64,000 nt of DNA, from contig NZ_FMZO01000015.1 in the NCBI RefSeq assembly GCF_900101395.1, positions 1-64,000 of the forward strand. Reading direction: 5' to 3'. Shown one piece after another: positions 9,425 to 27,671 of the stretch (position 1 is the stretch's first letter; each line of letters begins with the position of its first letter). Made by a program: the position numbers and the translations under genes. The DNA comes from Niabella drilacis. GTDB lineage: Bacteria > Bacteroidota > Bacteroidia > Chitinophagales > Chitinophagaceae. The notes under the pieces were generated by a model. The model was not told the DNA's origin. It saw only the letters and a list, made by a program, of their open reading frames with translations, and did not search any database.

Positions 9425-9529
9425 GGTACAATGATTTTTAAAGGGACAAATTTAGTCTTATCTTGTTCTGACTAAAACTAATGACCTTAAAATTTTAATT
9501 TTTGTTAACTTATTAGGATATTTGCCCGT

Positions 9530-10768: not shown

Positions 10769-10785
10769 TTTTAATAAGCATCAGT

Positions 10786-10819
10786 AATTTAAAAGCCTCC
10801 ACTTGGAGGCTTTTAAATT
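10786..10819 (+). terminator. Rho-independent terminator after serA
   Basis: A perfect 15-bp stem (arms 10786-10800 and 10805-10819) closes a 4-base loop, with AAAAGCCTCC pairing with GGAGGCTTTT in its upper part, followed by T-rich sequence. It lies just after the serA stop codon. Confidence 0.85.
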
Positions 10820-11033
10820 TTATAATGAACCTGTATCAAAATTATTGTTCCAAACCTGCTGCCATGGTTGGTGTCCCCGCTATAGCCTTCAGGTCATGGT
10901 CCGGGCCCGTAGTTATCGTATGGTTTATAAGAACACCTGCCATCCGCTTAAGCGAAAAGGAACGCTTATATCGTTTATATGCGCGGATTCCCCGCCTGAA
11001 ATGATCCGTGCCCAAGACGTAACAAGGCGCAGT

Positions 11034-11059
11034 AAAAAGCCTCCGGTTGGAGGCTTTTT
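11034..11059 (-). terminator. Rho-independent terminator of pyk
   Basis: An 11-bp perfect stem with a 4-base loop (arms 11034-11044 and 11049-11059) ends in a run of five T on the minus strand. It begins two bases past the pyk stop codon. Its AAAAGCCTCC/GGAGGCTTTT core is the same as in the serA terminator 235 bp away. The sequence between the two hairpins holds no convincing gene. Confidence 0.85.
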
Positions 11060-11061
11060 GT

Positions 11062-12558
11062 TTATGGAACTTCGGTAACTTTTATCGTATTGGTATGTAG
11101 CTTCAAATGCACCGGTGTACTGCCCGTACTTACCGCGGTATCCCCGCGTTTGAGGAATCCATTCTTTTTGAGGATATTGATCTGATCCGCAAAAATGGTA
11201 TCCAGGTCGTGCTGGTCATCGTCGTAGAAAAAAGCACGGATGCCCCAGCTCAGGCTTAGCTGATCGATCAGCGTGTGGCTCTTGGTAAATACGTATAACG
11301 GCACTTTAGGGCGATAGCTGCTGAGCATAAACCCGGTATAGCCGCTTTGTGTCATCCCGATCAGTGCATCGGCCCTTGTATCCTTTGCCAGGTTGCAGGC
11401 ATTGTAACAAATAGCATCGCTGGAAAGGGAAGGTGAATGGGGCTGGGGCTGCAGCTCGTTGGCCAGGTCGTAGTGGTATTCTGTTTTTTCAATTTCAAGG
11501 ATGATCTTCCGCATGGTTTGTACCACCAGTGTGGGGTGCTTGCCACTTGCGGTTTCGGCACTCAGCATTACCGCATCCGTACCTTCCAGTACCGCATTGG
11601 CTACATCGGTGATTTCACTGCGGTTGGGTTTGGAGCGGTCGATCATGCTCTCCATCATCTGGGTGGCAACGATCACGGGTTTTGCACGATGAATGCATTT
11701 GCGGATAATGCTTTTCTGGATCAGGGGTACTTTCTCAACCGGGAGCTCCACGCCCAGGTCGCCCCGCGCAATCATAATACCATCGGAGGCATGAATGATC
11801 TCCCGGATATTGGGAATAGCTTCCGGCATTTCGATCTTCGCGATGATCTTGGATTTGCTTTTATGTTTGTCCAGGATCTTGCGAAGTTTTTTAATATCTT
11901 CTACCTGGCGCACAAATGAGAGGGCTACCCATCCCAGCTGTTCTGCTATAATAAAATCAAGGTCCTCAAGATCTTTGGGCGTTAAGGCAGGCAAAGAAAT
12001 TTTTGTATCCGGAAGATTCACTCCCTTTTTGGAAGACAGGAATCCGCCCAGCACTACTTCCACCTTCACATCATTGTTGGGGAGGATCTTCCGTACAATA
12101 ACTTCCAGCTTTCCGTCGTCGATCATTATTTTATTACCCACTTTTACATCCTTGTGAAAATTGGGGTAGGAGATATAGATCTTTTCCTTGGTCCCCACCA
12201 TTTTTTTATTGGTGAAGATGAAGGTATCGCCCGGCTCTACCATGATACCGCCGCCTTCCATTTCCCCTACACGGAGCTTGGGGCCCTGGAGGTCGCCCAG
12301 GATGGCTACGGTTGTGTGTTCTTTGCGGTTGATTTCCCGGATGTATTCGATGATCTGCTTTTTTTCCTCATGCACACCATGGGAAAAATTCAGGCGGAAA
12401 ACGTTTACGCCCGCTTTTACAAGGTCAAGTAACTTATCGTAAGTGTTGCAGGCCGGACCAACGGTAGCCACAATCTTTGTGCGGTTAAAGCTGTGATCCG
12501 TATCCTTGGAAACAGTGGTTGCCAGGGATTTCTTTCGAACTTTTTGCGTTTCTGTCAT
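11062..12558 (-). CDS. pyk: Pyruvate kinase
   Basis: The 498-residue product contains the pyruvate kinase barrel from TKIVATVGPACNTYDKLLDLVKAGVNVFRLNFSHG onward. The MIARGDLGVELP and IVATQMMESMI motifs of the active site are present, followed by a C-terminal allosteric-type domain. It makes pyruvate and ATP from phosphoenolpyruvate. The ATG at 12558 starts an extra ~25 residues before the conserved fold, which is common in the phylum. The upstream neighbour on the same strand is a phosphofructokinase, but a terminator lies between them, so they are likely separate transcripts. Confidence 0.95.
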   Translation of the reverse strand: MTETQKVRKKSLATTVSKDTDHSFNRTKIVATVGPACNTYDKLLDLVKAGVNVFRLNFSHGVHEEKKQIIEYIREINRKEHTTVAILGDLQGPKLRVGEMEGGGIMVEPGDTFIFTNKKMVGTKEKIYISYPNFHKDVKVGNKIMIDDGKLEVIVRKILPNNDVKVEVVLGGFLSSKKGVNLPDTKISLPALTPKDLEDLDFIIAEQLGWVALSFVRQVEDIKKLRKILDKHKSKSKIIAKIEMPEAIPNIREIIHASDGIMIARGDLGVELPVEKVPLIQKSIIRKCIHRAKPVIVATQMMESMIDRSKPNRSEITDVANAVLEGTDAVMLSAETASGKHPTLVVQTMRKIILEIEKTEYHYDLANELQPQPHSPSLSSDAICYNACNLAKDTRADALIGMTQSGYTGFMLSSYRPKVPLYVFTKSHTLIDQLSLSWGIRAFFYDDDQHDLDTIFADQINILKKNGFLKRGDTAVSTGSTPVHLKLHTNTIKVTEVP

Positions 12559-12641
12559 GTTTCGATTTCTAATGTTTATGCCCCGATATATGTCAGGATC
12601 GTATTGCTGATTTTGAACCGGAAGCTACAAATTAAAAACAA

Positions 12642-12666
12642 AAAACCGCGCAACAAAGGCGGTTTT
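12642..12666 (-). terminator. Rho-independent terminator of the phosphofructokinase gene
   Basis: An 8-bp stem AAAACCGC/GCGGTTTT with a 9-base loop follows the phosphofructokinase stop codon on the minus strand, with T-rich sequence after it. Confidence 0.75.
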
Positions 12667-12686
12667 AATTGTTTCAGGGTTTTATT

Positions 12687-13907
12687 TTAGTTCCACTCCA
12701 GTATGTTGTTGAACAGGTACTCCTCCGGATTTTCCAGGTACTTTTTAGCAGCGTCCCTGTCGGCTTCCGTTAAGTAGTGCAGGGCATGTGCAAATACGGT
12801 CTGTGCATCTGCGCTCTGCATATCGATCAGGCGTGGTTTTACCTTTCCTTTTTCGTCCGCAACATCTTTCAGATAAAGTGGGTTGATATTTCCGGTTGCG
12901 TCCGCTGTAACAACGGCGCCGGTAATACCCTGGTCAAAAAGTTTTTTAACACCCATTCCCAGGAAGGTACAGTATTCTAGGTCATAAGCCGTGGGCGCCA
13001 GGCAGCGCAGCTCGTATCCCAATTCTACCGGGCGGCTTTTTACCGGAATATTCAGCTTCTTTAATTCGTTCTGCAAAAGAATATTGTAGATATGTGCCTT
13101 GCTTACATTGCCCAGCTCCGGGTGCCCATGATCATCATAGGTGAACTGGATGCCGGATGCTTTAATGTCGTCATCACTCATGAAGTGGAAAACGCCTTCG
13201 CTTACTACTGCAACGCCGTAAGGGATCTCAAGGATGTTTCTTTTTACGATGGAAGAAACGATCAGCCTGGTGATCTTATCCAGGGTCAGCTTGGTCTTGT
13301 TAAACATTTCGGGGATCACGATCATGGGATAGTGGCAGGCTACGCCGATCCCGAATGCCAGGTGACCGGCTTCGCGTCCCATAGCAGAAACCACAAACCA
13401 GTTGCCGGAAGTACGGGCATCTTCATAAATGGTTTTACCCAGTTTTACCCCTTCTTCCCTTGCGCTCTGGTAGCCAAATGTGGGCTGGCCATAGGGCAGC
13501 GGCAGATCATTATCGATCGTTTTGGGAACGTGAATATTCTGAACAGGAACATTTTTATTCCTGAGGAAGGTTGCAATACGGTTGGCTGTGGAGGCTGTAT
13601 CATCACCGCCGATGGTTACCAGGAGCTGAATATTGTTCTTTTCGAAGAATTCGCTTGTAAACTCATCATCTTTGGGTTTGTACCGGCTCATACGGAGAAA
13701 AGAGCCTCCCCGGCTGAAAATATCGTCCGCAAGTTTGAAATCGATATCTGTGGTCAGTCCGTTACCGTTAAAAAGGTTTTTATATCCGTCGTGCAGGCCA
13801 ATTACCCGGTAGCCGTCTTTTAAAAACGATTTAGCTACAGAACCGATCACCGTGTTAATGCCAGGGGCAGGACCACCGCCCGCAAGAATTACAATACTTT
13901 TCTCCAT
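12687..13907 (-). CDS. PPi-dependent-type 6-phosphofructokinase
   Basis: The 406-residue product is a phosphofructokinase-family protein. At the two diagnostic sites it reads GGDDT (residues 100-104) and PKTIDND (128-134). ATP-dependent enzymes usually have GGDGS and PGTIDND; the Asp and Lys seen here are characteristic of pyrophosphate-dependent enzymes. It would convert fructose 6-phosphate to fructose 1,6-bisphosphate reversibly with PPi. I place the start at the ATG at 13907; the longer frame opens with a TTG two codons earlier. The nucleotide specificity is inferred from family rules, not shown. Confidence 0.85.
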   Translation of the reverse strand: MEKSIVILAGGGPAPGINTVIGSVAKSFLKDGYRVIGLHDGYKNLFNGNGLTTDIDFKLADDIFSRGGSFLRMSRYKPKDDEFTSEFFEKNNIQLLVTIGGDDTASTANRIATFLRNKNVPVQNIHVPKTIDNDLPLPYGQPTFGYQSAREEGVKLGKTIYEDARTSGNWFVVSAMGREAGHLAFGIGVACHYPMIVIPEMFNKTKLTLDKITRLIVSSIVKRNILEIPYGVAVVSEGVFHFMSDDDIKASGIQFTYDDHGHPELGNVSKAHIYNILLQNELKKLNIPVKSRPVELGYELRCLAPTAYDLEYCTFLGMGVKKLFDQGITGAVVTADATGNINPLYLKDVADEKGKVKPRLIDMQSADAQTVFAHALHYLTEADRDAAKKYLENPEEYLFNNILEWN

Positions 13908-13913
13908 ATACAA

Positions 13914-14560
13914 ATTATTATGACTTAAGTGCGCAAATATAAGTGAAATTGATTTTTATTCTGTTCTGTTTGCTGTTATTTAAAGATTATTAAAGCTTAA
14001 CGGTCGTTTGTGTAAAAATATTTAATTACGGGTACTGCAGACCACCCGGCCTGCATGGATACAGAAGGGCAGTGTGTATTATGAAAAAGACCTTAACAGG
14101 TGCTTCACGCGGCGGGTGTAAGGACCATTAAAAAGCCAGGCATAATGCGGTAGCTCCGGTTGCTGTTGCCTCCCGGAAGGGAATGATATCCCGTAACAGG
14201 GATCTGTAACTGGTCAAAAAGGATGGCCGGGATCATGGACCTGCAAGTTAAAACAGATCTGCTGCAATGCAAGAGGAGGCTGCTGGCCGTTTTAAACCCT
14301 CCGTTCACCGTTTTTATCCCAATTTTAAGGGTTTCGTGGCAAAAGGGTAGTTATTTTACAGGTTACTATTGCGGAATACCGGTATTATGAGGTGGATCCG
14401 CAAAGTTTTGGAAAAGCAAGGGGCTGCGGGCAAAAAAATCTTGCGCCGCTTCGCTGCAGGGATCATGGCAGTTCCAAATATTTGGAGTAAGTTTGGTATT
14501 ATAATAGCCGGGTATTATGAGAGGAATCATTACAGGCAGATCAAGCAAGTAAAACAAGGA
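13914..14560. other. Non-coding gap before the kinase/cell-wall cluster
   Basis: About 650 bases separate the divergent phosphofructokinase and kinase genes. An open frame on the + strand from 14369 runs into the kinase, but its first 64 codons have no resemblance to kinase N-termini. A related CCGG(G)TATTATGAG motif occurs twice (near 14387 and 14509). No clear TAnnTTTG box or riboswitch was recognised. The cluster promoter must lie here if the seven genes form one unit. Confidence 0.4.
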
Positions 14561-16078
14561 ATGGAGAATACAACCATTAATGGTTATAAGCTAAAGTACA
14601 AATTGGGCGAAGGGGGCATGGCCGAAGTGTGGTATGCAGAAAACTACCTGCAAAAGCCCGCTGCTGTAAAGGTCTTGCAAAAGCGTTTCTGCGGAATGCC
14701 CGAGGTGGTGAGCCGTTTTGAGAACGAGGCCCGGCTGATGGTGCATCTCAATCATCCGCATATCCGCAATATTTATGATTATTCCACGGTAGACGGATGC
14801 CCCTGCATGATCATGGAATACCTGGAAGGGAAGGACCTTTCCCAGCGGATGAAGGAGGGGATGCATTTTTCGAACCGGCAGCTGATCACCTGGTGGAACG
14901 ATCTTGTAGATGCGCTCCAGTATACCCACCGTAAGAACATTATCCACCGCGATATAAAGCCATCCAATCTTTTCCTGACGGAAGATGGAAAAATAAAGAT
15001 CCTGGATTTTGGTATTGCCAAGCTGCGCGACAATGTTACGGTTACGCAAACCGGTTCCAGGATGGGAACGCTGATGTACATGAGCCCGGAACAGGTGTAT
15101 GATGTTAAAACGCTTTCCTACAAAACGGATATCTATTCTCTTGCCGTTACCTTTTATCACCTGGTCAGCGGCGTAGCACCCTATGATGCTTCGAAAATCT
15201 CCGATTTTGAGATACAGGAAAATATCGTGCGCAGGCATATTGATACTACGGTGCTTCCCGATCCCTGGAAGGGCCTGCTGCCGTTGTATCTTGGGAAAAA
15301 CCCTGAGGACCGGAAGGAACTCCGGCGTATTGATGCAGATATAACAAAGAGCGACGAAACCATCGTATTTACGCCGGTACCCCCGCAACCCATTGAAACG
15401 ATCTATCCGCCGCTGTCCACACACCCGGCACAGAAAACAGGCTCCAACCGGTTCGGGTATATTTTTCTTGTTTTCCTGATCGTGACCGGTCTGATCGTTT
15501 TTGCGTTAAACAAAGACGGGATCTTATCGATGTTCGGTGTAAACCAGGATGCGAATAAACCGGTGGCGGAAAAGCCGGTACCAAAACCCCGTGTTAAAAA
15601 GCAGCCTCAACCAGTGCCTTCTGAGGACCTGAAAACGGATACCGTGGATGCCAGGAACGACACCATGACCTCCACCCAGGTGGTTACCAGCGAAGACCTT
15701 GGGCAAAAGGAAGCCGAAATCAGGAACCGGATCAATGATTATTACCGGATGCGGCAGGATTGCGGAAGCCTGTCCCGGTTTTTCCGGGATACCGTACAGC
15801 AATATTATAACCGGTCTGATGAGTTACTGACCCGCATCCAGAAGGAATGTGCGGCCTATCATGGAAAATGGCGGTTTACCGAAGCCGATATTAATAGTTC
15901 GTCGTATGTATTTACCTATAATCCCAACGGGAATACCTACGTGGATTTTAGTATGCTTTATAAGATAAAACAGAATGAAGCGGATGACTGGATCCCTTAC
16001 AATATCGATGTGTCAGTCGTTTTTGATCAGCAGATGAAGATCGTGCGGATCGTGGAACGGAGGATCGAGAAGCTTTAG
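14561..16078 (+). CDS. Transmembrane Ser/Thr protein kinase (PknB-like), first gene of the cell-wall signalling cluster
   Basis: The 505-residue product starts at the ATG at 14561, just before NGYKLKYKLGEGGMAEVW. The kinase domain covers about residues 5-265: glycine loop GEGGMAEV (16-23), catalytic Lys37 in AAVKV, HRD at 129-131, DFG at 149-151, and an MSPEQ (APE-type) motif. A single helix (FGYIFLVFLIVTGLIVFAL, about 298-316) places the C-terminal ~190 residues outside the membrane. That part contains a Pro/Lys-rich linker and a compact domain with many aromatic residues; it has no PASTA repeats. All catalytic residues are present. It heads a run of same-strand genes encoding FHA proteins, a PP2C phosphatase and a SEDS-PBP fusion, so those are likely targets. 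Confidence 0.9.
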   Translation: MENTTINGYKLKYKLGEGGMAEVWYAENYLQKPAAVKVLQKRFCGMPEVVSRFENEARLMVHLNHPHIRNIYDYSTVDGCPCMIMEYLEGKDLSQRMKEGMHFSNRQLITWWNDLVDALQYTHRKNIIHRDIKPSNLFLTEDGKIKILDFGIAKLRDNVTVTQTGSRMGTLMYMSPEQVYDVKTLSYKTDIYSLAVTFYHLVSGVAPYDASKISDFEIQENIVRRHIDTTVLPDPWKGLLPLYLGKNPEDRKELRRIDADITKSDETIVFTPVPPQPIETIYPPLSTHPAQKTGSNRFGYIFLVFLIVTGLIVFALNKDGILSMFGVNQDANKPVAEKPVPKPRVKKQPQPVPSEDLKTDTVDARNDTMTSTQVVTSEDLGQKEAEIRNRINDYYRMRQDCGSLSRFFRDTVQQYYNRSDELLTRIQKECAAYHGKWRFTEADINSSSYVFTYNPNGNTYVDFSMLYKIKQNEADDWIPYNIDVSVVFDQQMKIVRIVERRIEKL

Positions 16079-16145
16079 TGCGTGAATAGTGAACAGGCAA
16101 TAATGCAGGAGGGATGAAAACCTGTTAAAATTTCAAATTGAAAAT

Positions 16146-17093
16146 ATGTTTGATAAACTAAAAAGATGGCTGTTGCCGGATGAGGAAGAAGAGGAGGAGG
16201 TAAGGCTCACCAACCAGGCGCTGGTGGACCAGGTATTGGTATCGTTTAAAGAAACCATTGAACGGGAATCATTCAACAAACGGATGATGTATGATTGCAG
16301 CTACCTCATCCTGATGCGTCCGGAAGACTATAAACATGCGGAACTGCGGCTTGCCGGTATTACGGAAGGGGTACTGGATGAATTTTACGATTATATCAAC
16401 CAGCGTAAAGACCAGTATCCCCGTTACGAGCCCATCGGCAATTTCTGGGACTTTCAATATTGCCCTGCGGAGCGGGGGGTTGATAACCAGGAGATCGAGC
16501 CCGGAACCATCCAGGTTGTGAGCACGCCTACTTCGGAGAAATCATGGTCGGAGCTCTCTTCCGAGCATATAAAGGTTTCTGTAAGCAGCAAGCATTCCAA
16601 GTATTCCAAATACGATCTGAACCCCACTACCTTTTCCAATATTGATATTTTGTCGAAGGGACATTTCCGGGTAAAATTCCGGAAGGATTTCCTGGGGGAT
16701 TTTACATCCGTGCAGGCGCCCCCGGCGGGGTCGGCGAACAATGCTCCGGCAGACAAGCTGGCTACTATACAGTTCGTGCTCAATAAACAGCGTTATAGTT
16801 TTCCCATGCGGGAAAAACAGCTGAAGATCACAAAGGCTATTGACGGCATGACCAGTACGGCAACATTGCTGTGCATTAATGAGCCCAGCGGAAGCCTTCA
16901 AAAAGAGCATATCATGATCCGGTATGAAGAAGGAGCCCGGGCTTTTTATATTGCTCTGTTTGCAGATGCTTTTGTAAATGAACAAAGGCTGGAGCTGAGC
17001 AGGGTAGGCGAAAACCCGGTATGGCACCCGCTGAAAAGCGAGTCTACTATTGTATGCGGGATCTTTCAGCTGGATTTTAAGGCCGCTGTTTAA
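16146..17093 (+). CDS. FhaA-like protein (DUF3662-like N-terminus, divergent FHA-like C-terminus)
   Basis: The 315-residue product has no signal peptide. Residues about 20-110 (NQALVDQVLVSF, then a YLILMRPEDYKHAELRLAGI stretch and a DEFYDYINQR helix) are arranged like the N-terminal DUF3662 domain of mycobacterial FhaA. The last ~110 residues are beta-rich, with an IQFVLNKQRYSFPMREKQLKI start and a YIALFADAFVNEQRL segment resembling an FHA sandwich. The usual G-R and S-x-x-H phosphothreonine-binding residues are not evident. This makes it a possible scaffold that has lost phosphopeptide binding. The assignment rests on pattern and position between a kinase and a phosphatase; a structure prediction would settle it. 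Confidence 0.55.
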   Translation: MFDKLKRWLLPDEEEEEEVRLTNQALVDQVLVSFKETIERESFNKRMMYDCSYLILMRPEDYKHAELRLAGITEGVLDEFYDYINQRKDQYPRYEPIGNFWDFQYCPAERGVDNQEIEPGTIQVVSTPTSEKSWSELSSEHIKVSVSSKHSKYSKYDLNPTTFSNIDILSKGHFRVKFRKDFLGDFTSVQAPPAGSANNAPADKLATIQFVLNKQRYSFPMREKQLKITKAIDGMTSTATLLCINEPSGSLQKEHIMIRYEEGARAFYIALFADAFVNEQRLELSRVGENPVWHPLKSESTIVCGIFQLDFKAAV

Positions 17094-17199
17094 ATGTTCG
17101 CAGGCCTGAACCTTAACATCGGGGTCCTGCTCCTGGTACCGGATGCTGATCCTACTTAACCGCTCAATATTTTAACTCGTTAACTAAAATAAAACGTGT

Positions 17200-17268
17200 A
17201 TGCTGGGAACCGTAATGCTGATATTGATCATCCTGGTATTTCTGTTACAATCTAAAGTGAAATCATGA
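17200..17268 (+). CDS. 22-residue membrane peptide coupled to the PP2C gene
   Basis: ATG at 17200 opens a 22-codon frame that reads MLGTVMLILIILVFLLQSKV then KS and a TGA stop. It is almost entirely one hydrophobic helix with a short basic C-terminal end. Its TGA overlaps the ATG of the phosphatase gene in the four-base ATGA arrangement, which usually means translational coupling. It sits in an otherwise long gap between two cluster genes. It could be a real membrane microprotein that modulates the kinase, phosphatase or SEDS protein, or only a coupling leader. No homologue is known to me. Confidence 0.45.
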   Translation: MLGTVMLILIILVFLLQSKVKS

Positions 17269-18383
17269 GCAGGACGATTATTTTATACGGGCAAACAGAC
17301 CTGGGGCGCAAACGGGAAGAGAATGAAGATAATTTTATTGCGGTTCCCGGGCTTTGGGCAACTCCCTCACGCGCGCTGGCAGGAGCTATTGACGGCGTTG
17401 GCGGTTATGAAGGAGGGGCAGAAGCTGCGTTGATCGCAAAAGAGACCATTGAAGCGTATTTGCAGAACTTCAGTTTTGGGGCTCCGCGGCAATTGCTGAA
17501 AGAGGCCGCCATTACTGCCAATAATAAGGTGTTTGAACAACGGAAGGCAAACGAAGCACTAAACCGTATGAGCTGTGTGCTTTCAGTAGCAGTACTGGAT
17601 GCTGATAAGGAAATGATGTATGTGGCGCATGTGGGCGACAGCCGCGGCTATGTTTGCCGCAACGGCAGCATGCTGAAAATTACCCGCGACCATTCGTCTG
17701 TAGGAATGAAGGAGGACAGCGGGTATCTCACAGAGGCGGAAGCCATGCAGCATCCGCGCAGGAATGAGATCAGCAAGATGGTGGGCGAGCTGTTCCTGGA
17801 TGCGGAAGATTCTGATCATTATTTTGACATCGGGGAACACAGCTTTTTGCCGGATGATATCGCTTTGTTTTGCTCCGATGGACTTACGGATCTTGTTACC
17901 CAGGCTCAGATGAGCGCCATCTTATCCGCGCCCGGTACACTGCAGCAGAAGGCGCAGCAGCTGATCGATAAGGCCAATGAGCTGGGCGGAAAAGATAATA
18001 TTACCGTGGTATTGGCTACCTATACCATAGCAAAGAAGCCCGGGCGCAAAAAGACCGTAAAACAGGCCATTGAAATTCCTATTGCAAACCCCGAAACAGA
18101 AGCGATTATGCCTGCGTATCATCGCCCTCCCGTCAAAAAAAAAATAAGCATATTGCCGGTCATTATTGCATTGGTTGTAGGGTTTTTGCTGAACTGGACA
18201 GGAACGCGCTCTTTTTTTACCCGGCAGGAGACGCCGCCGGCGGTGCCGGATACATTACCGCTCCGGAACGATACATTGCCGGCGATGGATAGCGCAAGGT
18301 TACAGCAAATGGATACATTAATTAACGCAACGGATACTATTTACAGGGACAGTATCCGCCGTAATGCACTGCAAGGCTATTAA
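17265..18383 (+). CDS. PP2C-family Ser/Thr phosphatase with one membrane helix (PstP-like)
   Basis: The 372-residue product has a full PP2C domain in its first ~255 residues: REENEDNF (17-24), AIDGVGG (41-47), HVGDSRG (122-128), a RDHS motif, CSDGLTD (203-209) and GGKDNITVV (241-249). The metal-binding aspartates are all present. A basic linker and one helix (ISILPVIIALVVGFLLNW, about 294-311) follow, with ~60 Thr/Asp/Pro-rich residues outside. This topology matches mycobacterial PstP, which dephosphorylates the kinases and wall-synthesis proteins encoded beside it. The ATG overlaps the stop of the 22-residue frame, and the next gene starts three bases after its stop, so the genes are tightly linked. 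Confidence 0.92.
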   Translation: MSRTIILYGQTDLGRKREENEDNFIAVPGLWATPSRALAGAIDGVGGYEGGAEAALIAKETIEAYLQNFSFGAPRQLLKEAAITANNKVFEQRKANEALNRMSCVLSVAVLDADKEMMYVAHVGDSRGYVCRNGSMLKITRDHSSVGMKEDSGYLTEAEAMQHPRRNEISKMVGELFLDAEDSDHYFDIGEHSFLPDDIALFCSDGLTDLVTQAQMSAILSAPGTLQQKAQQLIDKANELGGKDNITVVLATYTIAKKPGRKKTVKQAIEIPIANPETEAIMPAYHRPPVKKKISILPVIIALVVGFLLNWTGTRSFFTRQETPPAVPDTLPLRNDTLPAMDSARLQQMDTLINATDTIYRDSIRRNALQGY

Positions 18384-18386
18384 CAG

Positions 18387-21300
18387 ATGAAGCAAAAAAT
18401 AAAACTATATCCAAGACGGATCGAACGGATTCTTTTAGCGGCGGTAACCCTGCTGCTGGGCCTCATGGCCTACCAGTATTACCAGCATAAAAAGGCGGAT
18501 TTTATTAATTCGGATTACGGGTATGAAAGCGGTAAAATGGTAAACCTGGTAGCCCCGGTCCAATCCGCCACGCTGCAGCAGGTTTTTACCAAGGGCGGGT
18601 ATTTTACGGATGAGGAATACATCCGCTTTATTGCCGGGAAAATAAAAACGCTGGTGGAGCAGGAAGGACAATTGCCCAACCTGGGCGCCCTGAACAAAAA
18701 CAGCCTGATGCTTCCCGCTACCGAGTTTTTGAACACTTCCAGTGAGTCCGGCAAGCTGCGCTTCCTGAATGCCATTACACAACTGGATATGGATAGTGCG
18801 CTTTATGCTGCGGAGCTCAGGCATCCTGCAAAGTATCCCGATGAAGTGGCGGTTCAAAATACCAAGACAAAACTGTCGATCCATGGCAGGATACAGCTGG
18901 CTTCTTCAGACAGCAGCGGAGAGCAGGAGGGCGGCGGTGTGCTGGTAAAACTGACAGAGGTCTTCCCCTCTAATTATTATGATACGCTCAGTGTGCAGCC
19001 GGGTAATGAAGCAACAGAATTTTTTGCACGTACCAATGAGAACGGGTCCTATGAGTTCTATAATTTAAAAGCGCAGCGGAATTACCGGGTTATTGCCATG
19101 AAGCCCGGCTATGATTTTGGCCCGGCAAAAGGCATTGCCGCCATTGAGGGCGATCAGTCGTTCAGCTTTAAAGGCCGGCCTCATAAGATCCGGCTCCTGG
19201 ACCGTACAGAGTTCCGCCAGATCAAAAACGATAAGATCTTTACGGTACGTACGCCTGCGGATTTTAAGAAAGAATATTTTACCAACCTCGTCTTGTTTGT
19301 ACTGGCTTTCTGGATCTTCCATTTTGTACTCTGGCTGAAAAATTACCGGAGCGACCAGTTTATTTTACCCCTGTTATTCTTCCTGTCGGGTACCGGTATT
19401 ATGGTATTATATAGTATGCAGGATCCGCTGCGGGACATGATCCATGGAAGCGGCATGGCAAAATGTGTTGCCGGCGTACTGATATTTTTTTCTGTGGTGT
19501 TATTCTTCCTGAAAGAAAATGCGGTGATGCGCTTCTATCATTCCAGGTGGTTTGACCCGGTTCACAGCCTGTTGCCCTTGTCGGGCGGATTAAAAGCCCC
19601 GCGGGGCTACTCCTGGATGCTCCTTTCCATAGTGCTGATGCTGATGCTGGCGTTGATTGGTACCGGTCCGGAGGGAAGCGGGGTAAAAGTAAACCTGTTC
19701 GGGTTTCAGGTGAGCGAGCTGTCAAAGGTATTAATGATCGTATTTTTTGCTGCCTATTTTGCAGTAAATTCCGAATACTTCCGCAATATTCCTGATAACC
19801 GCTGGCTCACGCGGAACAATATAAAGATGCTGCTCTTGTTTGTATTCCTGCTTGGCGTTTATGCAGCGCTGGGGGACCTGGGGCCTGCCATTGTATTATG
19901 TTTGACTTTTTTATTCTTTTATTCGTTTGCAAAAGAGGAGTTCTTTCCCATGATACTGGTGGCGGTGATCTATGTGGTATTGCTTATGATCACCTCCCGG
20001 TTTATCAACAACGCACAGCATGATTATCTTCCATGGCTGGCATTTGTTGCCTGCGCCGGTACGCTGGGGTATGTATTTTTCAGGAAACGGTATGAGTCGG
20101 TATTTTTTATAGTGCTGATCATTTCGTCGTTTATCCTGCTGGCCACCCTGCCTTTTGAGTTTACCCAGCGCCTGGCAGACCGGAACGGGATGTTCCGGAA
20201 TATTTGGGAGAACAAGCTCATCGGGGGCGACCAGGTGGCGCAGGGGATCTGGTCGCTGAATGCCGGCGGCTTTTTGGGGCAGGGGCTGGGAAAGGGATTC
20301 CCGAGCGTCATGCCCGCCTATCATACGGATATGATCCTGGAAAGTATTGGTGAGGAGCTGGGGCTGGTAGCGCTGATCGCTGTCTTCCTGGCATTTGGCC
20401 TGTTGACCTACCGGTCGTTGCTGGCGGCGCGCCGTACCGGAAAGCCGTTTCTTTTTTACCTGGTGGCGGGCATTGCCATTGCCACCATGCTCCAGTTCTT
20501 CCTGATCACGGCCGGAACCCTGGGACTGATCCCGTTAACGGGGATCTCTGTACCTTTCCTGAGCAAGGGCAATGCCGGTATCATCATCACCCTTACTGCA
20601 TTTATGATGGTATTGCTCCTGTCCAATGAGAAAGGCGATGCCCTCGAGATGGAATATGTAAAAAAGAATTTTGACAATGTGAACGCCTATGCGATCCTCA
20701 CGTTCTTTGCGGTGCTGCTCTTTTTTATCGGAACCTTGTTCTGGTACCAGTATAAATCGAATGAATATATTACCAAACCGGCGCTGGTGCTGAACCGCAA
20801 AGGAGCCTGGCAGTACAGCTATAATCCCCGTATCGGTATCTTTTTGCGGGAGATCCGTTCCGGCAATATCTACGACAGGAACGGGGTATTGCTGGCCACA
20901 TCCAGCAAGGCTACTTTTGACCAGTTCAAAAACCGGCTGGTGCCCCTGGGTGCAAACCCGGTACTGTACGGAGAGCAGTTGAAAAGGGATCAGAACCGGT
21001 ATTATCCTTTTGGAGCAGACCTGCTGTTCTGGCTGGGCGATTATAATAAAGAGATCGCCAATGAGGAGGAGGCCGGTTACGCAGCAGAATACCGGCATTA
21101 TACGCTCTTGAAGGGCTTTGATGTTACCAGCACTACTTCTCAAAAAACATCGGACCGTTATAAGGAAGACCGTTTCCTGCCGGTTACGCAAAAGGAATCG
21201 GAGCTGGTCAGGTACGACTATAGTGCGCTGGCGCCTATTTTAAAGGAAGGAAAGGATGGCCAGTGGGTGGAGCTGCAAAATAATAAGGATAAAGATATCC

Positions 21301-22430
21301 GGCTATCCGTGGATGTGGTACTCAACCAAAAGATCAACGCAGTGATCCAGAACACTACCGCCTCCAACTCCTTCCGGACTTCTATGGTTGCGGTCAATGC
21401 CGCCACCGGTGATGTGCTGGCCTCTGCTTCCAACCCCGCGCCTTCCTATAAGGACCTGAAGCTCATCAGTAATATCGATCCTTCCGATTACAGGACCATT
21501 TTTAAGCAGATCTTCCAGGACCGGGTAGTAGTACCTCAGGACCTGGGCATTACGTTTAATTCAAGACCCGGGTCTACAGTAAAGATCATTGATGCCACAG
21601 CGGCTATGAACCAGTATGGCCCGCAGGCGGCACAGTTCAGCTATTTTGTTTACCCGGCTGAGGTGATCCACCAGGGCGAACCGGTAAATACGAATGTGGA
21701 TATGCGTTCGGCGATCGTGCACTCCAGCAACGTGTATTTTATTAAACTGGCTAATGATAAGAACCTGCAGCCCTCTCTTTTTAGCCTGTATGACGCATTG
21801 GGGATGAATATACTGAACCGAGGAGGCTTTCATTTTCAACGGCCCGAAGATTATGACAGTGAGAAATATTTTAAGGAATGGGGCAAATTTGTGGCCCGGG
21901 GAAAGAACATCTTCAACAGCCAGCGGCTGATGAACACACGCAGGAGGCTCCAATCGCCCTATTCGGATCTTGCATGGGGACAGGGGGAGCTTTCGGCCAC
22001 ACCGCTGCATTTGGCAAGAATGACGGGCGCGCTTGCAGACAGTGGTATATTGCAGCCTTCCCGCTTTTTGTTTAAGAGCTGGAGTAATAAAGTAAGTCTC
22101 CAGAAAGCGGCTGCGGTCACTAATCAACCACAGATCGCCCCGCTGATCGGAAGTTTTATGCGGGAGCAATCTGCAAAGGTTTCCGCGGCCTCCGGGCTGG
22201 AAGTGCATGGAAAAACCGGAAGCCCGGAACGGGATAAGCTGGTGAAGAAAGGGGATAAAATGGCGCTGAAACGGGTTACAGACTCCTGGTATACGTTTTT
22301 TGTAGCTTCGCCGAAGTTAAAGGCGCCCATTGCCTTTACGATCCGGATCGAAGAGATCGGGAACTCAGAATATGCCAAAACACTGGCAGTTGATATTTTG
22401 AAACAACTGAAAGGGGCAGGGTATTTTTAA
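18387..22430 (+). CDS. SEDS glycosyltransferase-class B PBP fusion with extra periplasmic domain
   Basis: This 1347-residue protein joins three modules. Residues 1-300 contain an N-terminal helix (about 14-32) and a periplasmic region with a carboxypeptidase-regulatory-like beta domain (about 165-250, with NENGSYEFYNL). Residues ~300-750 are a RodA/FtsW multi-helix domain with GDLGPAIVL, GQGLGKGFPSVMPAYHTDMI and a LIPLTGISVPFLSKGN motif; Asp648 fits the catalytic SEDS aspartate. After a further helix (~768-787), residues 790-1347 form a class B transpeptidase with S-x-x-K at 1063-1066 (PGSTVK), SSN at 1113-1115 and KTG at 1276-1278. Both polymerase and crosslinking activities appear intact. 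In most bacteria these are separate partners (RodA-PBP2, FtsW-FtsI). Its place between PP2C and FHA/kinase genes suggests phosphorylation control of wall synthesis. Confidence 0.92.
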   Translation: MKQKIKLYPRRIERILLAAVTLLLGLMAYQYYQHKKADFINSDYGYESGKMVNLVAPVQSATLQQVFTKGGYFTDEEYIRFIAGKIKTLVEQEGQLPNLGALNKNSLMLPATEFLNTSSESGKLRFLNAITQLDMDSALYAAELRHPAKYPDEVAVQNTKTKLSIHGRIQLASSDSSGEQEGGGVLVKLTEVFPSNYYDTLSVQPGNEATEFFARTNENGSYEFYNLKAQRNYRVIAMKPGYDFGPAKGIAAIEGDQSFSFKGRPHKIRLLDRTEFRQIKNDKIFTVRTPADFKKEYFTNLVLFVLAFWIFHFVLWLKNYRSDQFILPLLFFLSGTGIMVLYSMQDPLRDMIHGSGMAKCVAGVLIFFSVVLFFLKENAVMRFYHSRWFDPVHSLLPLSGGLKAPRGYSWMLLSIVLMLMLALIGTGPEGSGVKVNLFGFQVSELSKVLMIVFFAAYFAVNSEYFRNIPDNRWLTRNNIKMLLLFVFLLGVYAALGDLGPAIVLCLTFLFFYSFAKEEFFPMILVAVIYVVLLMITSRFINNAQHDYLPWLAFVACAGTLGYVFFRKRYESVFFIVLIISSFILLATLPFEFTQRLADRNGMFRNIWENKLIGGDQVAQGIWSLNAGGFLGQGLGKGFPSVMPAYHTDMILESIGEELGLVALIAVFLAFGLLTYRSLLAARRTGKPFLFYLVAGIAIATMLQFFLITAGTLGLIPLTGISVPFLSKGNAGIIITLTAFMMVLLLSNEKGDALEMEYVKKNFDNVNAYAILTFFAVLLFFIGTLFWYQYKSNEYITKPALVLNRKGAWQYSYNPRIGIFLREIRSGNIYDRNGVLLATSSKATFDQFKNRLVPLGANPVLYGEQLKRDQNRYYPFGADLLFWLGDYNKEIANEEEAGYAAEYRHYTLLKGFDVTSTTSQKTSDRYKEDRFLPVTQKESELVRYDYSALAPILKEGKDGQWVELQNNKDKDIRLSVDVVLNQKINAVIQNTTASNSFRTSMVAVNAATGDVLASASNPAPSYKDLKLISNIDPSDYRTIFKQIFQDRVVVPQDLGITFNSRPGSTVKIIDATAAMNQYGPQAAQFSYFVYPAEVIHQGEPVNTNVDMRSAIVHSSNVYFIKLANDKNLQPSLFSLYDALGMNILNRGGFHFQRPEDYDSEKYFKEWGKFVARGKNIFNSQRLMNTRRRLQSPYSDLAWGQGELSATPLHLARMTGALADSGILQPSRFLFKSWSNKVSLQKAAAVTNQPQIAPLIGSFMREQSAKVSAASGLEVHGKTGSPERDKLVKKGDKMALKRVTDSWYTFFVASPKLKAPIAFTIRIEEIGNSEYAKTLAVDILKQLKGAGYF

Positions 22431-22539
22431 GACATCAGCTTTCAGCCATCAGCCTTCAGTATTTAATGAGCCCTGATAAGCTGACAGCTGATACCTGACT
22501 ACTGATCGCTGGCAACTATAAACATTTAACTCCAATACT

Positions 22540-23436
22540 ATGAATTGGTTTAAGAAAAAATTTGAACAATTTTCGGAAAAGCTCAATGCAGATGATACTT
22601 CTTTTGGGGCCATCGAAAAAAAAGAGGAAGGGCGCGTGCCGCAGACTCCAAAAGTGCCGGAGCGGAGTGCTTCATCGGGTCGGGTAGATAATATTGAAGA
22701 GTTAAAGGAGATCACCCTGGGCGCCATCAGCAACACCGTGCGGATGCTGGGCTACAGTAATACGGTGATCTCCGGCCTGGTATTCCATTCTGTATATAAG
22801 GACAATGCAATCGAAAATGTAGGCCTGATGAGCCTGATGAAAGATCCCCGGTTCCTGAGCCGGATAAAAAGGGAACTTAAATCAAGAGGTGTGGCCTATA
22901 AGGACGACCTGCGAATGGAAGTACTGCATGAATCACCTGATACCGGCAAAGTAACTGCGATCACCGAAGGAATCGGCGTGGAGGTACTGACACCTAAAGA
23001 CGTGCTTAAGAAACAAAAGGCCCGTGTGGTAGCTACAGAAGGTGTTACCTGGGAGCCGGAGTACATCCTGGAGCCGACAGGCAAACATTATTTTATCGGC
23101 AGGGGGAAGGACCCGAAAATAGAGAGCGGCCCAAAGATCCACAATGATATAGCCTTTGTAGGGATCGAAGAAAAAAATGAAGAGCAGTACAAGGTGAATA
23201 ATTTTATCAGCCGCTCGCACGCGGTCATCGTATTTGATAAAGAGATAGGCGCTTATAAGCTCTTCCGTTCAAAGTTCCTGAATAATCCTTCCCATAAGAT
23301 CAAGATCTTTAACGCATCGCTGGATGATTTTTCGGGCATCAGTTTAAGCAATGCAACCGTGCCGCATATTTTGAAGAATGGAGATTCGATCTGTTTTAAC
23401 GACAGGATTGTATTGGAGTTTGGATTACTGGACTGA
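22540..23436 (+). CDS. FHA-domain protein with DUF3662-like N-terminus
   Basis: The 298-residue soluble product has a charged first 50 residues, then a helical/beta region (about 55-150, EELKEITLGAISNTVRML) that resembles the DUF3662 domain of FhaA. The C-terminal FHA domain has GRG at 187-189 and SRSH at 224-227, the residues that hold phosphothreonine. Thus, unlike the divergent 16146-17093 protein, this one should read phosphorylated partners, probably the cluster kinases or the SEDS-PBP protein. It lies 109 bases after the SEDS-PBP gene; that spacer is a degenerate CTGA-rich sequence rather than an obvious promoter. Confidence 0.82.
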   Translation: MNWFKKKFEQFSEKLNADDTSFGAIEKKEEGRVPQTPKVPERSASSGRVDNIEELKEITLGAISNTVRMLGYSNTVISGLVFHSVYKDNAIENVGLMSLMKDPRFLSRIKRELKSRGVAYKDDLRMEVLHESPDTGKVTAITEGIGVEVLTPKDVLKKQKARVVATEGVTWEPEYILEPTGKHYFIGRGKDPKIESGPKIHNDIAFVGIEEKNEEQYKVNNFISRSHAVIVFDKEIGAYKLFRSKFLNNPSHKIKIFNASLDDFSGISLSNATVPHILKNGDSICFNDRIVLEFGLLD

Positions 23437-23545
23437 GGCCTAAGTGGGCAGGTTATTGAAGGGATAAGTGGAACATGAGAAGTTGGATCTGAAAGGTAGG
23501 CGGTGGGCAGGGAAATTGAAAAATTAAATCAGAAACAGGAAAAGG

Positions 23546-24916
23546 ATGCATGAATTAGCATTAAAATATGATATCCTTAAAGTGGTGGGCCATGGCGGTT
23601 TTTCGGCCGTGTTCAAGGCCCGGAGCAAAGAGGATCCGGAGCACGTTGTGGCATTAAAACAACTGGATTTTGTGTTGGAAAACGAAGATGCAAAAGAATA
23701 CCGGGATTTTAAGAACGAGGTGGAGATCCTTAAAAGGCTGGATCATCCCAATATCGTGAAGATCTACGATGAGTATATACTGGATAACAAGCCCTCGCTG
23801 GAAATGGAGTATGTGGATGGCGAAACGCTTGAAACCATCATCCAGCGGGAGGGGTATTTTTCTATTGAAGATGCCCTGGAAGTGATTGCACAAATGGCGT
23901 CTGCTTTAAGTTATTGTCATCACTATCATTCCTATGGCAATTCGCCGCTGCACGGGCCCTCCGATTCGGTGATCATCAACCGGGATGCGATCATTCACAA
24001 TGATATCAATCCCAAGAATATTATCCGTACCCGGAATGAAGAGGGGGGCTGGAGGTATGTGCTCATCGATTTCGGGCTGTCTTTTGCAGACCCGGATGCG
24101 GTGCGCCATAGCAAAAAGGAAGACGGGATGGCCGAATATAAGGCCCCCGAAAAATGGAGGGCGGCGCTGGTTGATACCCCTTCGGACATTTATAGTTTGG
24201 GGATCGTTCTTTACGAACTGCTTACCGGAGGGGTGCCTTTTCCTGTTAAAGACTACAAGCAGGCCAACGAAATGATCGCCCTGGAGGAAAAGCACAAGAG
24301 CGCCCCGGTACCGGATATCTGCCGCAAACGGATGGAAGCCATCGAAGCGAGAGAGGGGATAAGGCCGGATGAATGCGATATTCCTGGATGGCTGCAGATG
24401 CTGGTACGGCAATGTCTTGAAAAAGACCCGCTGAAGCGCTTCAGAACGGGACGTGAACTGAACCGTTTTTTTTATAACGGCCTGGATGGGAAGATCGACA
24501 TGCCCGAAACACAGGAGGGTGCGGTCATTGATATTGACCCGGCGGTTCTGCAAAAGAATGCAGGTGCTTATATCGAAGTGAAGCCGAATATCCTTACCGA
24601 AGGTCAGCACTTCTTTATCAATAAAGACCTGATCACTATTGGGCGCTGGAATGATCTGCCGGGAGGAACGGCAGATTTTGGCATCAGGACCTCCGACCGG
24701 TTCATTTCAAAAAATCATTGCCAGATCCTGCGCAGACGTACTGCTGATGGCGGGTATGCTTATTTTTTACAGGATAAAGCCCCCAGTAAGAACGGAACGT
24801 ATTTTAACACGGATAAAAATTCTATACGCTTATCCGATACCACGGAAGTCCTTTTAAAAGAGGGCGATTATTTTTGGGTGGGCAATACAGAAATCGTGTT
24901 TCACCAGGGGGCGTAG
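23546..24916 (+). CDS. Soluble Ser/Thr kinase with C-terminal FHA domain
   Basis: The 456-residue product has a kinase domain over about residues 5-310: GHGGFSAV (15-22), Lys38 in ALKQL, a catalytic loop HNDINPKN (151-158), DFG (175-177) and APE (200-202). The loop has Asn in place of the Arg of HRD, so activity may not need activation-loop phosphorylation, as in other non-RD kinases. An insertion of ~20 residues precedes the loop. The FHA domain (about 345-456) keeps Gly366-Arg367, Ser388/His391 and Asn416-Gly417. No membrane helix is present. A kinase fused to its own phosphothreonine reader could dock on targets phosphorylated by the first kinase. It ends the cluster. Confidence 0.9.
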   Translation: MHELALKYDILKVVGHGGFSAVFKARSKEDPEHVVALKQLDFVLENEDAKEYRDFKNEVEILKRLDHPNIVKIYDEYILDNKPSLEMEYVDGETLETIIQREGYFSIEDALEVIAQMASALSYCHHYHSYGNSPLHGPSDSVIINRDAIIHNDINPKNIIRTRNEEGGWRYVLIDFGLSFADPDAVRHSKKEDGMAEYKAPEKWRAALVDTPSDIYSLGIVLYELLTGGVPFPVKDYKQANEMIALEEKHKSAPVPDICRKRMEAIEAREGIRPDECDIPGWLQMLVRQCLEKDPLKRFRTGRELNRFFYNGLDGKIDMPETQEGAVIDIDPAVLQKNAGAYIEVKPNILTEGQHFFINKDLITIGRWNDLPGGTADFGIRTSDRFISKNHCQILRRRTADGGYAYFLQDKAPSKNGTYFNTDKNSIRLSDTTEVLLKEGDYFWVGNTEIVFHQGA

Positions 24917-25757: not shown

Positions 25758-27671
25758 ATGAAATCGTTTATTGTTACGGCCGGATTGATGTTAATAATGG
25801 GAACCACCCATGCACAAAAAAAACTGACGGCGCTTTCCACTTCCAGGGGAACCATTGTAGCGCACAGGGTTACCTCTGGCGAATCGTTACAGTATTTAAG
25901 CACAAAATACGGGGTATCCCTTGCTACACTTGCAAAGGCAAATGGCATGAAGGGTAGCCAGGAGCTGAAGATCGGGCAAACGGTTAAAGTACCGGTTACG
26001 GCTTCTAACCTGAATACCAAATCCCGGAAGGGGATCCCTGTCTATTACGAGGCGGGGGCAAAGGATAACTTAACAACCATTAGCCGCAAATTCAACCGGG
26101 TGGATGTAAAAACCCTGAAGGCCTGGAACAAGCTGAGAAAAGATGCTGTTTCCAGGGGGCAGGACATCCTGGTTGGGTATATGATGGATAATGCCGCGGC
26201 AAAGAAGGAGAAAAAAGAAGAGGAGCAGACCGAAACGGCCAGGAGTAATGCCGGTGCTACTTTAAAGACAGGACAGAAAGTAACCGTTACTTCCGCCGTG
26301 AATATCCGTAAAGGAGCCAGTACCGGCCAGCCGGTAGCAGGCACGCTGCAAAAAGATGAAGTGGTTACGGTTACGCGGCGAGTGAACGGCGACTGGGTAG
26401 AAGTACGTACAGCCGGGGGACAAAAAGGTTATATGGCCTCCCAGTTTTTGGAGCCGGTAACTGCCCCGCAGGCAGACGAAGAAAAAGAAACAGTTAAAAG
26501 CAGCGTTGTGCTGAAGGCTGGTCAAAAAGCAGCAGCAGCATCGGCGGTGAATATACGCAAGGGGCCGGGCACAGACCAGCCGGTAGTAGGACAGGTAGAG
26601 AAGGATGAAGTGGTAACCATAAGCCGCAGGGTTAATGATGAATGGGCTGCTATCCGTACTGCTGACGGGAAAAAGGGCTATGTGGCTTCCCAGTTCCTGG
26701 GTTCGGCAGATTCAAAGAATAATGATGAGGAAAAAGAAGTGGCAAAGGCGGAAGTGAAAAAAACAGCCGGCAAAAAGGCGAAAGTGGCTTCCGATACGTA
26801 TATTAATATACGGAAAGGGCCGGGCACGGACCAGGCTGTTGTGGGGCAGGCTCAAAAGGACGAAATTATTACCATAACCCGGCAGGTAAATGACGAATGG
26901 GCAGCTGTACGTACCAGCGGCGGAACAGAAGGCTATGCCGCCACTCAGTATCTTGTAGACCCGGCTGCAGAACCGGCAGAACGCCCGGTGGCTAAAAAAG
27001 AGCAGCCGGCTGTCAAAGCAGAAAAGCAAATGGCCATTGTGGGTACGGGGATCAACATCCGGAAGGGACCGGGTACTGAAGAACCGGTAGTAGGCAAGGC
27101 CGAAAACAATGAAATTGTTACAGTAAGTGGCGATACAAAAGGTGAATGGGCCGCAGTGCGTACGGGAGAGGGCGTTACAGGATATATCGCCTCCCGTTTT
27201 CTTGGTCCGGCAGAAAAAGCAGCCCCCGAAAATGAAGCGCCGGAAGCCGTTGTAAAAAAAGCGTCTTCTAAGCCCTCCGGGGAGCAGCCGGCCGCACAGG
27301 CTGTTTCTTCCGCACCGGTTGCCGAAGCGGCACCTCCTCCTGCAAATTTTGACGAAAGCGGATTCTTTAAGACCGCGTACGAGGCACAAACAACTGCTGC
27401 TTCCACAACCGATAAACCGGTGCATGCGGGAGTCTTTAAAACCGATAAAGGCTGGGATGATGGAAAATATTATGCGTTGATCGACGGCGTTCCTTCCGGA
27501 ACGATCATCAAACTATCCAATCCTAATGCAAACACAACGGTGTATGCAAAAGTACTGGGAGATATAAAAAGCCTGAAACAAAAGAACAGTCCGGCCTTGC
27601 GTATTAGTGATGCCGCAGCTACGGCACTCCGCATTAATGCTGCGGATTTTGATGTTGTGGTTACCCATTAA
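25758..27671 (+). CDS. LysM/multi-SH3 wall protein with RlpA-like C-terminus
   Basis: The 637-residue product has a signal peptide ending HAQ and a LysM domain (about residues 35-80, HRVTSGESLQYLSTKYGVS). A second weaker LysM-like repeat (about 95-140) follows. Then come four SH3-type repeats, each with a (V/I)NIRKG motif and a GY.A(S/T) end, at roughly residues 170-230, 250-315, 335-395 and 425-480. The C-terminal ~100 residues (HAGVFKTDKGWDDGKYYALI onward) look like the double-psi barrel found in RlpA/LysM proteins of the phylum. It probably binds peptidoglycan in the periplasm. The SH3 repeats are long DNA-level tandem repeats and may vary by recombination. Confidence 0.85.
   Translation: MKSFIVTAGLMLIMGTTHAQKKLTALSTSRGTIVAHRVTSGESLQYLSTKYGVSLATLAKANGMKGSQELKIGQTVKVPVTASNLNTKSRKGIPVYYEAGAKDNLTTISRKFNRVDVKTLKAWNKLRKDAVSRGQDILVGYMMDNAAAKKEKKEEEQTETARSNAGATLKTGQKVTVTSAVNIRKGASTGQPVAGTLQKDEVVTVTRRVNGDWVEVRTAGGQKGYMASQFLEPVTAPQADEEKETVKSSVVLKAGQKAAAASAVNIRKGPGTDQPVVGQVEKDEVVTISRRVNDEWAAIRTADGKKGYVASQFLGSADSKNNDEEKEVAKAEVKKTAGKKAKVASDTYINIRKGPGTDQAVVGQAQKDEIITITRQVNDEWAAVRTSGGTEGYAATQYLVDPAAEPAERPVAKKEQPAVKAEKQMAIVGTGINIRKGPGTEEPVVGKAENNEIVTVSGDTKGEWAAVRTGEGVTGYIASRFLGPAEKAAPENEAPEAVVKKASSKPSGEQPAAQAVSSAPVAEAAPPPANFDESGFFKTAYEAQTTAASTTDKPVHAGVFKTDKGWDDGKYYALIDGVPSGTIIKLSNPNANTTVYAKVLGDIKSLKQKNSPALRISDAAATALRINAADFDVVVTH

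Follow-up and report, generated by a model that had tools for sequence, protein, structure and literature searches.

Control of cell wall synthesis by protein phosphorylation has been studied mainly in Gram-positive bacteria and mycobacteria. Does a Gram-negative member of the Bacteroidota, Niabella drilacis, carry a peptidoglycan synthase under such control, and is it a version of the locus known from actinobacteria? The question is raised by seven genes, all on the + strand, at positions 14561-24916 of a window of 64,000 nucleotides (the whole stretch of DNA that was analysed). They encode a transmembrane Ser/Thr kinase, an FhaA-like protein, a 22-residue membrane peptide, a membrane PP2C phosphatase, a fusion of a SEDS protein with a class B penicillin-binding protein (PBP), an FHA protein and a kinase-FHA fusion. 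A preliminary description had named genes of these kinds at this place, and open reading frames (ORFs), Pfam matches, AlphaFold2 (AF2) folds and hydropathy bear it out. On the sequence evidence, the cassette is real, conserved and accompanied by a phospho-signalling set. We estimate a probability of about 0.7 that it encodes an auxiliary peptidoglycan synthase that is self-contained and controlled by reversible Ser/Thr phosphorylation. It is, as far as sequence comparison goes, related to the actinobacterial locus, being neither a member of that group nor a copy.

Relatives of the fusion were sought in 394 genomes drawn from the phylum, and the counts that follow are among the matches listed. 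A full-length relative was found in 10 genomes, including that of the window, and a long, distant fusion in 5 more; the best match in all remaining genomes had an E-value of 1.9e-16 or weaker, or there was none. At the nine full-length loci outside the window, the genes for the FhaA-like protein (hereafter FHAn), PP2C, the fusion, the FHA protein (FHA2) and a kinase lie side by side without exception (9/9), in flanks that mostly differ between genera, some being common within a genus. A second genome scan gave 301 fusion relatives, and the best 80 of the 301 were taken as the locus set. These include Niabella (best relative 90% identical to the window's protein), Niastella, Spirosoma, Fibrella, Larkinella, Pedobacter, Mucilaginibacter and others. 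With a cut-off of E 1e-5, the strand of the fusion also carries FHA2 in 79/80 loci, PP2C in 76/80, a kinase in 75/80 and FHAn in 73/80; all five kinds share one strand in 70/80, the fusion's own presence (80/80) being given by construction, as loci were picked by their synthase. The order FHAn, PP2C, optional kinase, fusion, FHA2 is kept in 66 of the 70 loci with enough flank when genes without a match are passed over, and in 58 of the 70 with no intervening ORF of at least 70 amino acids (aa); the loci without the order FHAn-PP2C-fusion-FHA2 are L068, L069, L076 and L081. The neighbourhood search proposed in the preliminary description thus finds the genes kept together, not scattered. Around ordinary RodA or FtsW genes, 11 control loci of 20 kb, searched in all reading frames, gave a SEDS match and no FHA or kinase match; one PP2C-like ORF of 129 aa appeared (L133, E 0.0046), and none at 1e-5. 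Chance neighbourhood is ruled out by this comparison, 70/80 conserved loci against 0/11 control loci with the gene set.

The same order of FHAn, PP2C, fusion and FHA2 recurs in a distant genome (L049), and a complete cassette (L142 2244-12800) lies on a plasmid of Spirosoma oryzicola, so that the cassette can sit on a plasmid. At two loci, L113 and L100, three tandem kinase genes follow FHA2.

The fusion gene (18387..22430) encodes 1347 aa with Pfam matches to FTSW_RODA_SPOVE (2.7e-33) and Transpeptidase (6.6e-19), which upholds the claim that the wall enzymes are joined in one protein. Its N-terminal module, set between transmembrane helices, weakly resembles the CarboxypepD_reg beta-sandwich (7.6e-4, under the cut-off); the same domain is over the cut-off in distant fusions (1.4e-11 in L045, 6.7e-12 in L049). 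From the N-terminus, the chain would consist of a transmembrane helix (under the hydropathy threshold and read by eye), a periplasmic module, a second helix, ten SEDS helices, the PBP helix and a periplasmic PBP. The SEDS aspartate (in HTDMIL) and the SxxK, SxN and KTG motifs, which we take to be catalytic, are invariant in 10/10 aligned fusions. Among 76 fusions of more than 1200 aa, strict patterns for the four match 75, 75, 60 and 68, misses being counted by pattern alone. In one distant genome (L048), PP2C stands in front of SEDS and PBP in a single chain of 1384 aa, a predicted protein in which phosphatase and synthase are directly linked. Engineered RodA-PBP2 fusions are active (PMC10449877, PMC6207328) and natural SEDS-PBP fusions exist, with the Rhodococcus RHA1 genome cited (PMC10449877); the cassette protein resembles the latter in that a single chain holds both SEDS and class B PBP. 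A small sample of plasmid records from outside the phylum was also covered. On a linear plasmid of Rhodococcus pseudokoreensis (L145 7249-10089), a SEDS-PBP fusion has an M23 peptidase nearby; unlike the cassette protein, it is 946 aa long, is without a listed kinase, PP2C or FHA gene in its vicinity, and falls on the other side of the SEDS tree.

All 13 genomes checked (13/13) hold two other SEDS genes and MreB besides the cassette. Replacement of RodA is thereby ruled out; because the two other SEDS genes are kept, the cassette comes on top of RodA and FtsW instead of standing in for them, and in having a third SEDS beside these two it differs from the actinobacterial locus.

Where this third SEDS belongs was addressed with a tree of 51 of the 58 rows collected, 6 near-duplicates and 1 row without a domain match being left out. 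The cassette, the distant fusions, six actinobacterial RodA and a SEDS of Monoglobus (Clostridia) are split with support of 100/99 from 21 other rows, namely 16 Bacteroidota RodA/FtsW, E. coli RodA and FtsW, SpoVE, actinobacterial FtsW and the Rhodococcus plasmid fusion. The split returned at 100/99 in a repeat with 44 rows, which left out 7 more, including Monoglobus and four of the five longest. Forcing all Bacteroidota SEDS together was rejected (p-AU 9.7e-5), and a grouping of the cassette SEDS with native RodA/FtsW is accordingly rejected by this approximately unbiased (AU) test. In the unrooted tree the cassette SEDS lies nearest to actinobacterial RodA, including those of the fhaA-pknB locus; to call it sister to them rests on a root lying among the FtsW/RodA rows, since the trees are unrooted. 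Four of the six actinobacterial RodA are encoded in loci with PP2C and kinases, that of Embleya has a kinase only, and neither was found for Streptantibioticus. In Monoglobus (L154 3539-6524), a small FHA gene directly precedes the SEDS gene and a PBP gene.

The signalling proteins begin with the first kinase (14561..16078), the start of which was picked after the 505-aa frames of close relatives. It matches Pkinase at 1.1e-45 (on a longer frame from 14369), has HRD and DFG motifs, and its best solved relatives are StkP and PknA. By hydropathy it has one transmembrane helix (residues 298-316) and an extracytoplasmic part of ~190 aa; PP2C and the 22-residue peptide also have one helix each, and the FHA proteins and the kinase-FHA protein none. 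That last protein (23546..24916) would thus be a soluble kinase (Pkinase 2.4e-42) joined to an FHA domain (3.7e-8); its match to NCBIfam TagH, an FHA protein of type VI secretion, is far under the cut-off. Patterns of our own find HxD and DFG in 110/113 cassette kinases longer than 380 aa. No PASTA domain is seen in the first kinase, as its C-terminal 198 residues, including the end of the helix, match no Pfam family at E 1. Neither of the window's two kinases has a Pfam match to PASTA, as the preliminary description had stated, and the NCBIfam PASTA-kinase model stays under its cut-off. The phosphatase (17265..18383) matches Pfam PP2C at 5.3e-13, keeps the conserved motifs and has a C-terminal transmembrane helix (residues 294-312); NCBIfam Stp1 is matched at 1.4e-54, under its cut-off. 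Across the window's genome, Pfam finds two Pkinase, one FHA and one PP2C_2 match, all inside the cassette, and in three others (G269, G261, G363) two kinases and one FHA match per genome, all at the cassette; such counts would miss strongly diverged members, FHAn and FHA2 being examples.

Both stand-alone FHA proteins are too diverged for Pfam, which gives no FHA match for FHAn (16146..17093) and only E 0.049, under the cut-off, for FHA2 (22540..23436). AF2 models, folded from 49/71 listed FHAn and 50/78 listed FHA2 sequences plus the window's own, show an FHA fold in both. In FHA2 (mean predicted local distance difference test, pLDDT, 85.3) the phospho-threonine-binding motif is intact, with G187, R188, S224 and R225 in 51/51 sequences and H227 in 48/51. 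Counterparts in distant genomes are longer FHA proteins (L048 11479-12753, L049 11435-12805), and that of L048 starts with a Swt1-like HEPN domain (Pfam 7.4e-22), the L049 protein being alike by eye. Two domains make up the FHAn model (mean pLDDT 75.7), and it is the C-terminal domain that has the FHA fold. Its best Foldseek match is MDC1 (E 5.5e-6), the FHA domain of mycobacterial FhaA follows at 3.2e-4, and the 50 fold matches listed are all FHA or FHA-bearing structures, with no solved FhaA_N among them; against PDB sequences, its profile finds the FHA domains of SLMAP (1.4e-6) and FhaA (0.01). By hhalign, the N-terminal domain of FHAn matches actinobacterial FhaA_N (four sequences) at collinear positions with E 2.7e-5 and probability 74.5, and that of four distant members does so with E 4.3e-4 and probability 34; these E-values are single comparisons, in which unrelated domain pairs gave 0.07 or worse. 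Among the members scanned with Pfam, FhaA_N is over the cut-off in distant L045 alone, and under it in L048. An FhaA_N-like N-terminus was also considered for FHA2 and rejected (E 0.074 and 0.24). The label FhaA-like stands for the FHA fold and for a weak collinear FhaA_N match; part of the phosphate-binding motif of the FHA domain is lost.

The 22-residue gene (17200..17268) ends 4 nucleotides (nt) inside the start of the PP2C gene, the spacings along the seven genes being 67, 106, -4, 3, 109 and 109 nt. By hydropathy thresholds that we set ourselves, a short ORF with a transmembrane stretch occupies the gap between FHAn and PP2C in 59/72 loci, against 11/281 other same-strand gaps and 6/72 antisense. 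In two other groups of the family (38 and 21 distinct sequences; Niabella-type peptides, the window's included, were left out), the ratio of non-synonymous to synonymous differences (pN/pS) is 0.34 and 0.40 in frame, and 0.85/1.77 and 0.77/2.47 in shifted frames; choosing and anchoring peptides by a short motif lowers pN somewhat, and pS is near saturation. The window's peptide has recognisable counterparts in Niabella relatives. Gap enrichment and the frame-specific constraint in relatives rule out a spurious small ORF, and by these measures the membrane gene is real. In distant loci, L049 has a candidate and none was found in L045, L047 or L048; on the Spirosoma plasmid, the peptide is not among the features of an incomplete table, and the scan found no usual peptide there. 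The slot between the FhaA and PP2C genes is filled in four actinobacterial loci by FhaB, which starts with a hydrophobic stretch in all three sequences read. Our guess is that the micropeptide replaces the membrane anchor of FhaB.

How close, then, is the cassette to the actinobacterial locus? In mycobacteria, FhaA, PstP, PknB and RodA/PbpA, all encoded at one locus, have roles in growth of the wall (PMC11898655, PMC6554272), and PstP is described as transmembrane (PMC6554272). The succession of FhaA-like protein, a membrane piece, PP2C, SEDS and PBP is found in four actinobacterial loci (Nocardia, Tsukamurella, Nonomuraea and Actinomyces). The cassette resembles the fhaA-fhaB-pstP-rodA-pbpA-pknA-pknB arrangement in having these parts so ordered together with Ser/Thr kinases, in placing a membrane PP2C upstream of SEDS, and in a SEDS of the nearest lineage in the tree. 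It differs in that its SEDS and PBP are fused behind a beta-sandwich module with no separate PbpA, its kinases in the window lack the PASTA domain that PknB has, one kinase lies upstream of the FhaA-like gene, the micropeptide takes the FhaB slot, and a second FHA gene, FHA2, follows the synthase. The claim that the locus mirrors the actinobacterial order thus holds for FhaA-like, PP2C, SEDS and PBP, and breaks down at the upstream kinase and at FhaB, which is not in place. That it is a version of that locus is right for the SEDS and goes too far for the transpeptidase (TP) and PP2C domains, the missing PASTA and a system that is added to RodA and FtsW; likewise, the phylogenies then proposed set the SEDS apart from house-keeping Bacteroidota RodA/FtsW, and give TP and PP2C clades of their own.

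Several findings weigh against our interpretation or narrow it. In the TP tree (36 rows, with 18 of 26 collected Bacteroidota fusions), the cassette forms its own clade (100/100), with four of the five distant fusions beside it and L050 apart, and shows no link to PbpA, PBP2 or FtsI. The PP2C tree (27 rows; one of nine other PP2C loci, L170, gave no row) unites cassette and distant members in one group (99/97) apart from other Bacteroidota PP2C, and keeps the cassette phosphatase apart from PstP as well. The three trees together indicate that the proteins do not all tell of one descent from an actinobacterial operon. The FHA domain of FHAn is degenerate: its motif keeps the histidine in 45/45 sequences and the serine three residues earlier in just 17/45, and the window's protein, by eye, is without the usual GR. 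Two genomes (G249, G033) have further kinases, FHA and PP2C proteins outside the cassette, so that confinement of these genes to it is not general. Within ~9 kb either side, L068 and L069 have the fusion and FHA2 only (stretches 8926-21371 and 8929-13878) and no FHAn, PP2C or kinase; distant L045 and L047 have the FhaA-like protein, fusion and FHA2, with no PP2C or kinase match within 20 kb. At these four loci kinases would have to act from elsewhere, as none was found near the fusion.

The collinear FhaA-PP2C-SEDS-PBP order, the FhaA_N match, the SEDS nearest actinobacterial RodA, the plasmid-borne copy and the transmembrane peptide in a slot where FhaB (with its hydrophobic start in the three read) belongs could all reflect the actinobacterial pstP operon itself, moved between phyla and then fused and rearranged. 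We regard this as unlikely, given long branches, TP and PP2C domains that do not group with PbpA or PstP, and window kinases that lack PASTA. Distant lineages of the phylum have similar cassettes and a clostridium has an FHA-SEDS-PBP set, which points to an old lineage more than to a recent transfer. Because the SEDS is nearest actinobacterial RodA while TP and PP2C stand apart and the kinases lack PASTA, the two loci appear related without one being a copy of the other. A further possibility is an ancient bacterial SEDS lineage tied to FHA, kinase and PP2C genes, with actinobacterial RodA and the Bacteroidota cassette as its two surviving branches. To this we give about an even chance: the 100/99 split that unites cassette, distant fusions, actinobacterial RodA and Monoglobus persisted without Monoglobus and six further rows, although the tree is unrooted, the group is a clade only if the root lies on the FtsW/RodA side, and few phyla were sampled.

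A different doubt concerns the output. The kinases, phosphatase and FHA proteins might serve another process, such as secretion or transcription, and merely share an operon with the synthase. PpkA, PppA and Fha1 of Pseudomonas, which likewise bring kinase, PP2C and FHA proteins together, have a role in type VI secretion. The available part of one paper describes that set as acting on Hcp1 secretion (PMC6213207), and contains no word beginning with 'bacteroid'. Unlike that system, the output of which is secretion, the cassette has a wall synthase as its constant neighbour. FHA2 stands beside the synthase on its strand in 79/80 loci and PP2C is fused to it in L048, and we consider an unrelated output highly improbable. 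It also seems distinctly unlikely that the cassette is in essence a spare PBP/SEDS, non-essential and tolerant of beta-lactams, that is retained for stress from antibiotics or lysozyme. In favour of this are its presence in addition to RodA and FtsW, a TP domain that lies far from PBP2 and FtsI, and the copy on a plasmid; against it, the regulatory set goes far beyond what a spare enzyme has. The idea is compatible with a phospho-regulated auxiliary synthase, for which that stress would be the trigger.

For the auxiliary synthase that we favour, the parts suggest how regulation may work. The transmembrane kinase would sense an envelope cue through its extracytoplasmic part and phosphorylate the synthase or its partners at cytoplasmic sites. 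FHA2 and the kinase-FHA protein, whose FHA domains are intact, may bind the resulting phospho-threonines and so assemble the complex or switch it, with the FhaA-like protein as a scaffold. The membrane PP2C would reset the system, and the micropeptide could tune kinase, phosphatase or synthase within the membrane. The synthase would act alongside FtsW and RodA, probably when particular conditions of growth or stress prevail. Close downstream of the cassette, at 25758-27671 of the window, a gene encodes a protein that carries LysM as well as four SH3_3 stretches; such a protein is encoded near the G269 cassette too.

Among the literature matches listed, mostly without subscription papers and so weak evidence of novelty, there was no description of the cassette in Bacteroidota, and it is probably undescribed so far. 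The odds seem evenly balanced that it constitutes an undescribed third peptidoglycan synthase system of Bacteroidota, separate from both Rod complex and divisome. In this view, several genomes would reserve every Ser/Thr kinase that can be detected for the system, which would have a conserved membrane micropeptide of its own and a SEDS that shares an old phospho-regulated lineage with actinobacterial RodA. If that shared lineage is real, mycobacterial 'RodA' would be no true counterpart of E. coli RodA. The cassette adds a new family of membrane micropeptide genes and may provide an evolutionary link with the mycobacterial locus. As a compact set found in cultured Gram-negative Bacteroidota, with the polymerase joined to the crosslinker, and once to the phosphatase too, in a single chain, it would make it possible to test how a SEDS-PBP enzyme is switched by phosphorylation and by the docking of FHA domains.

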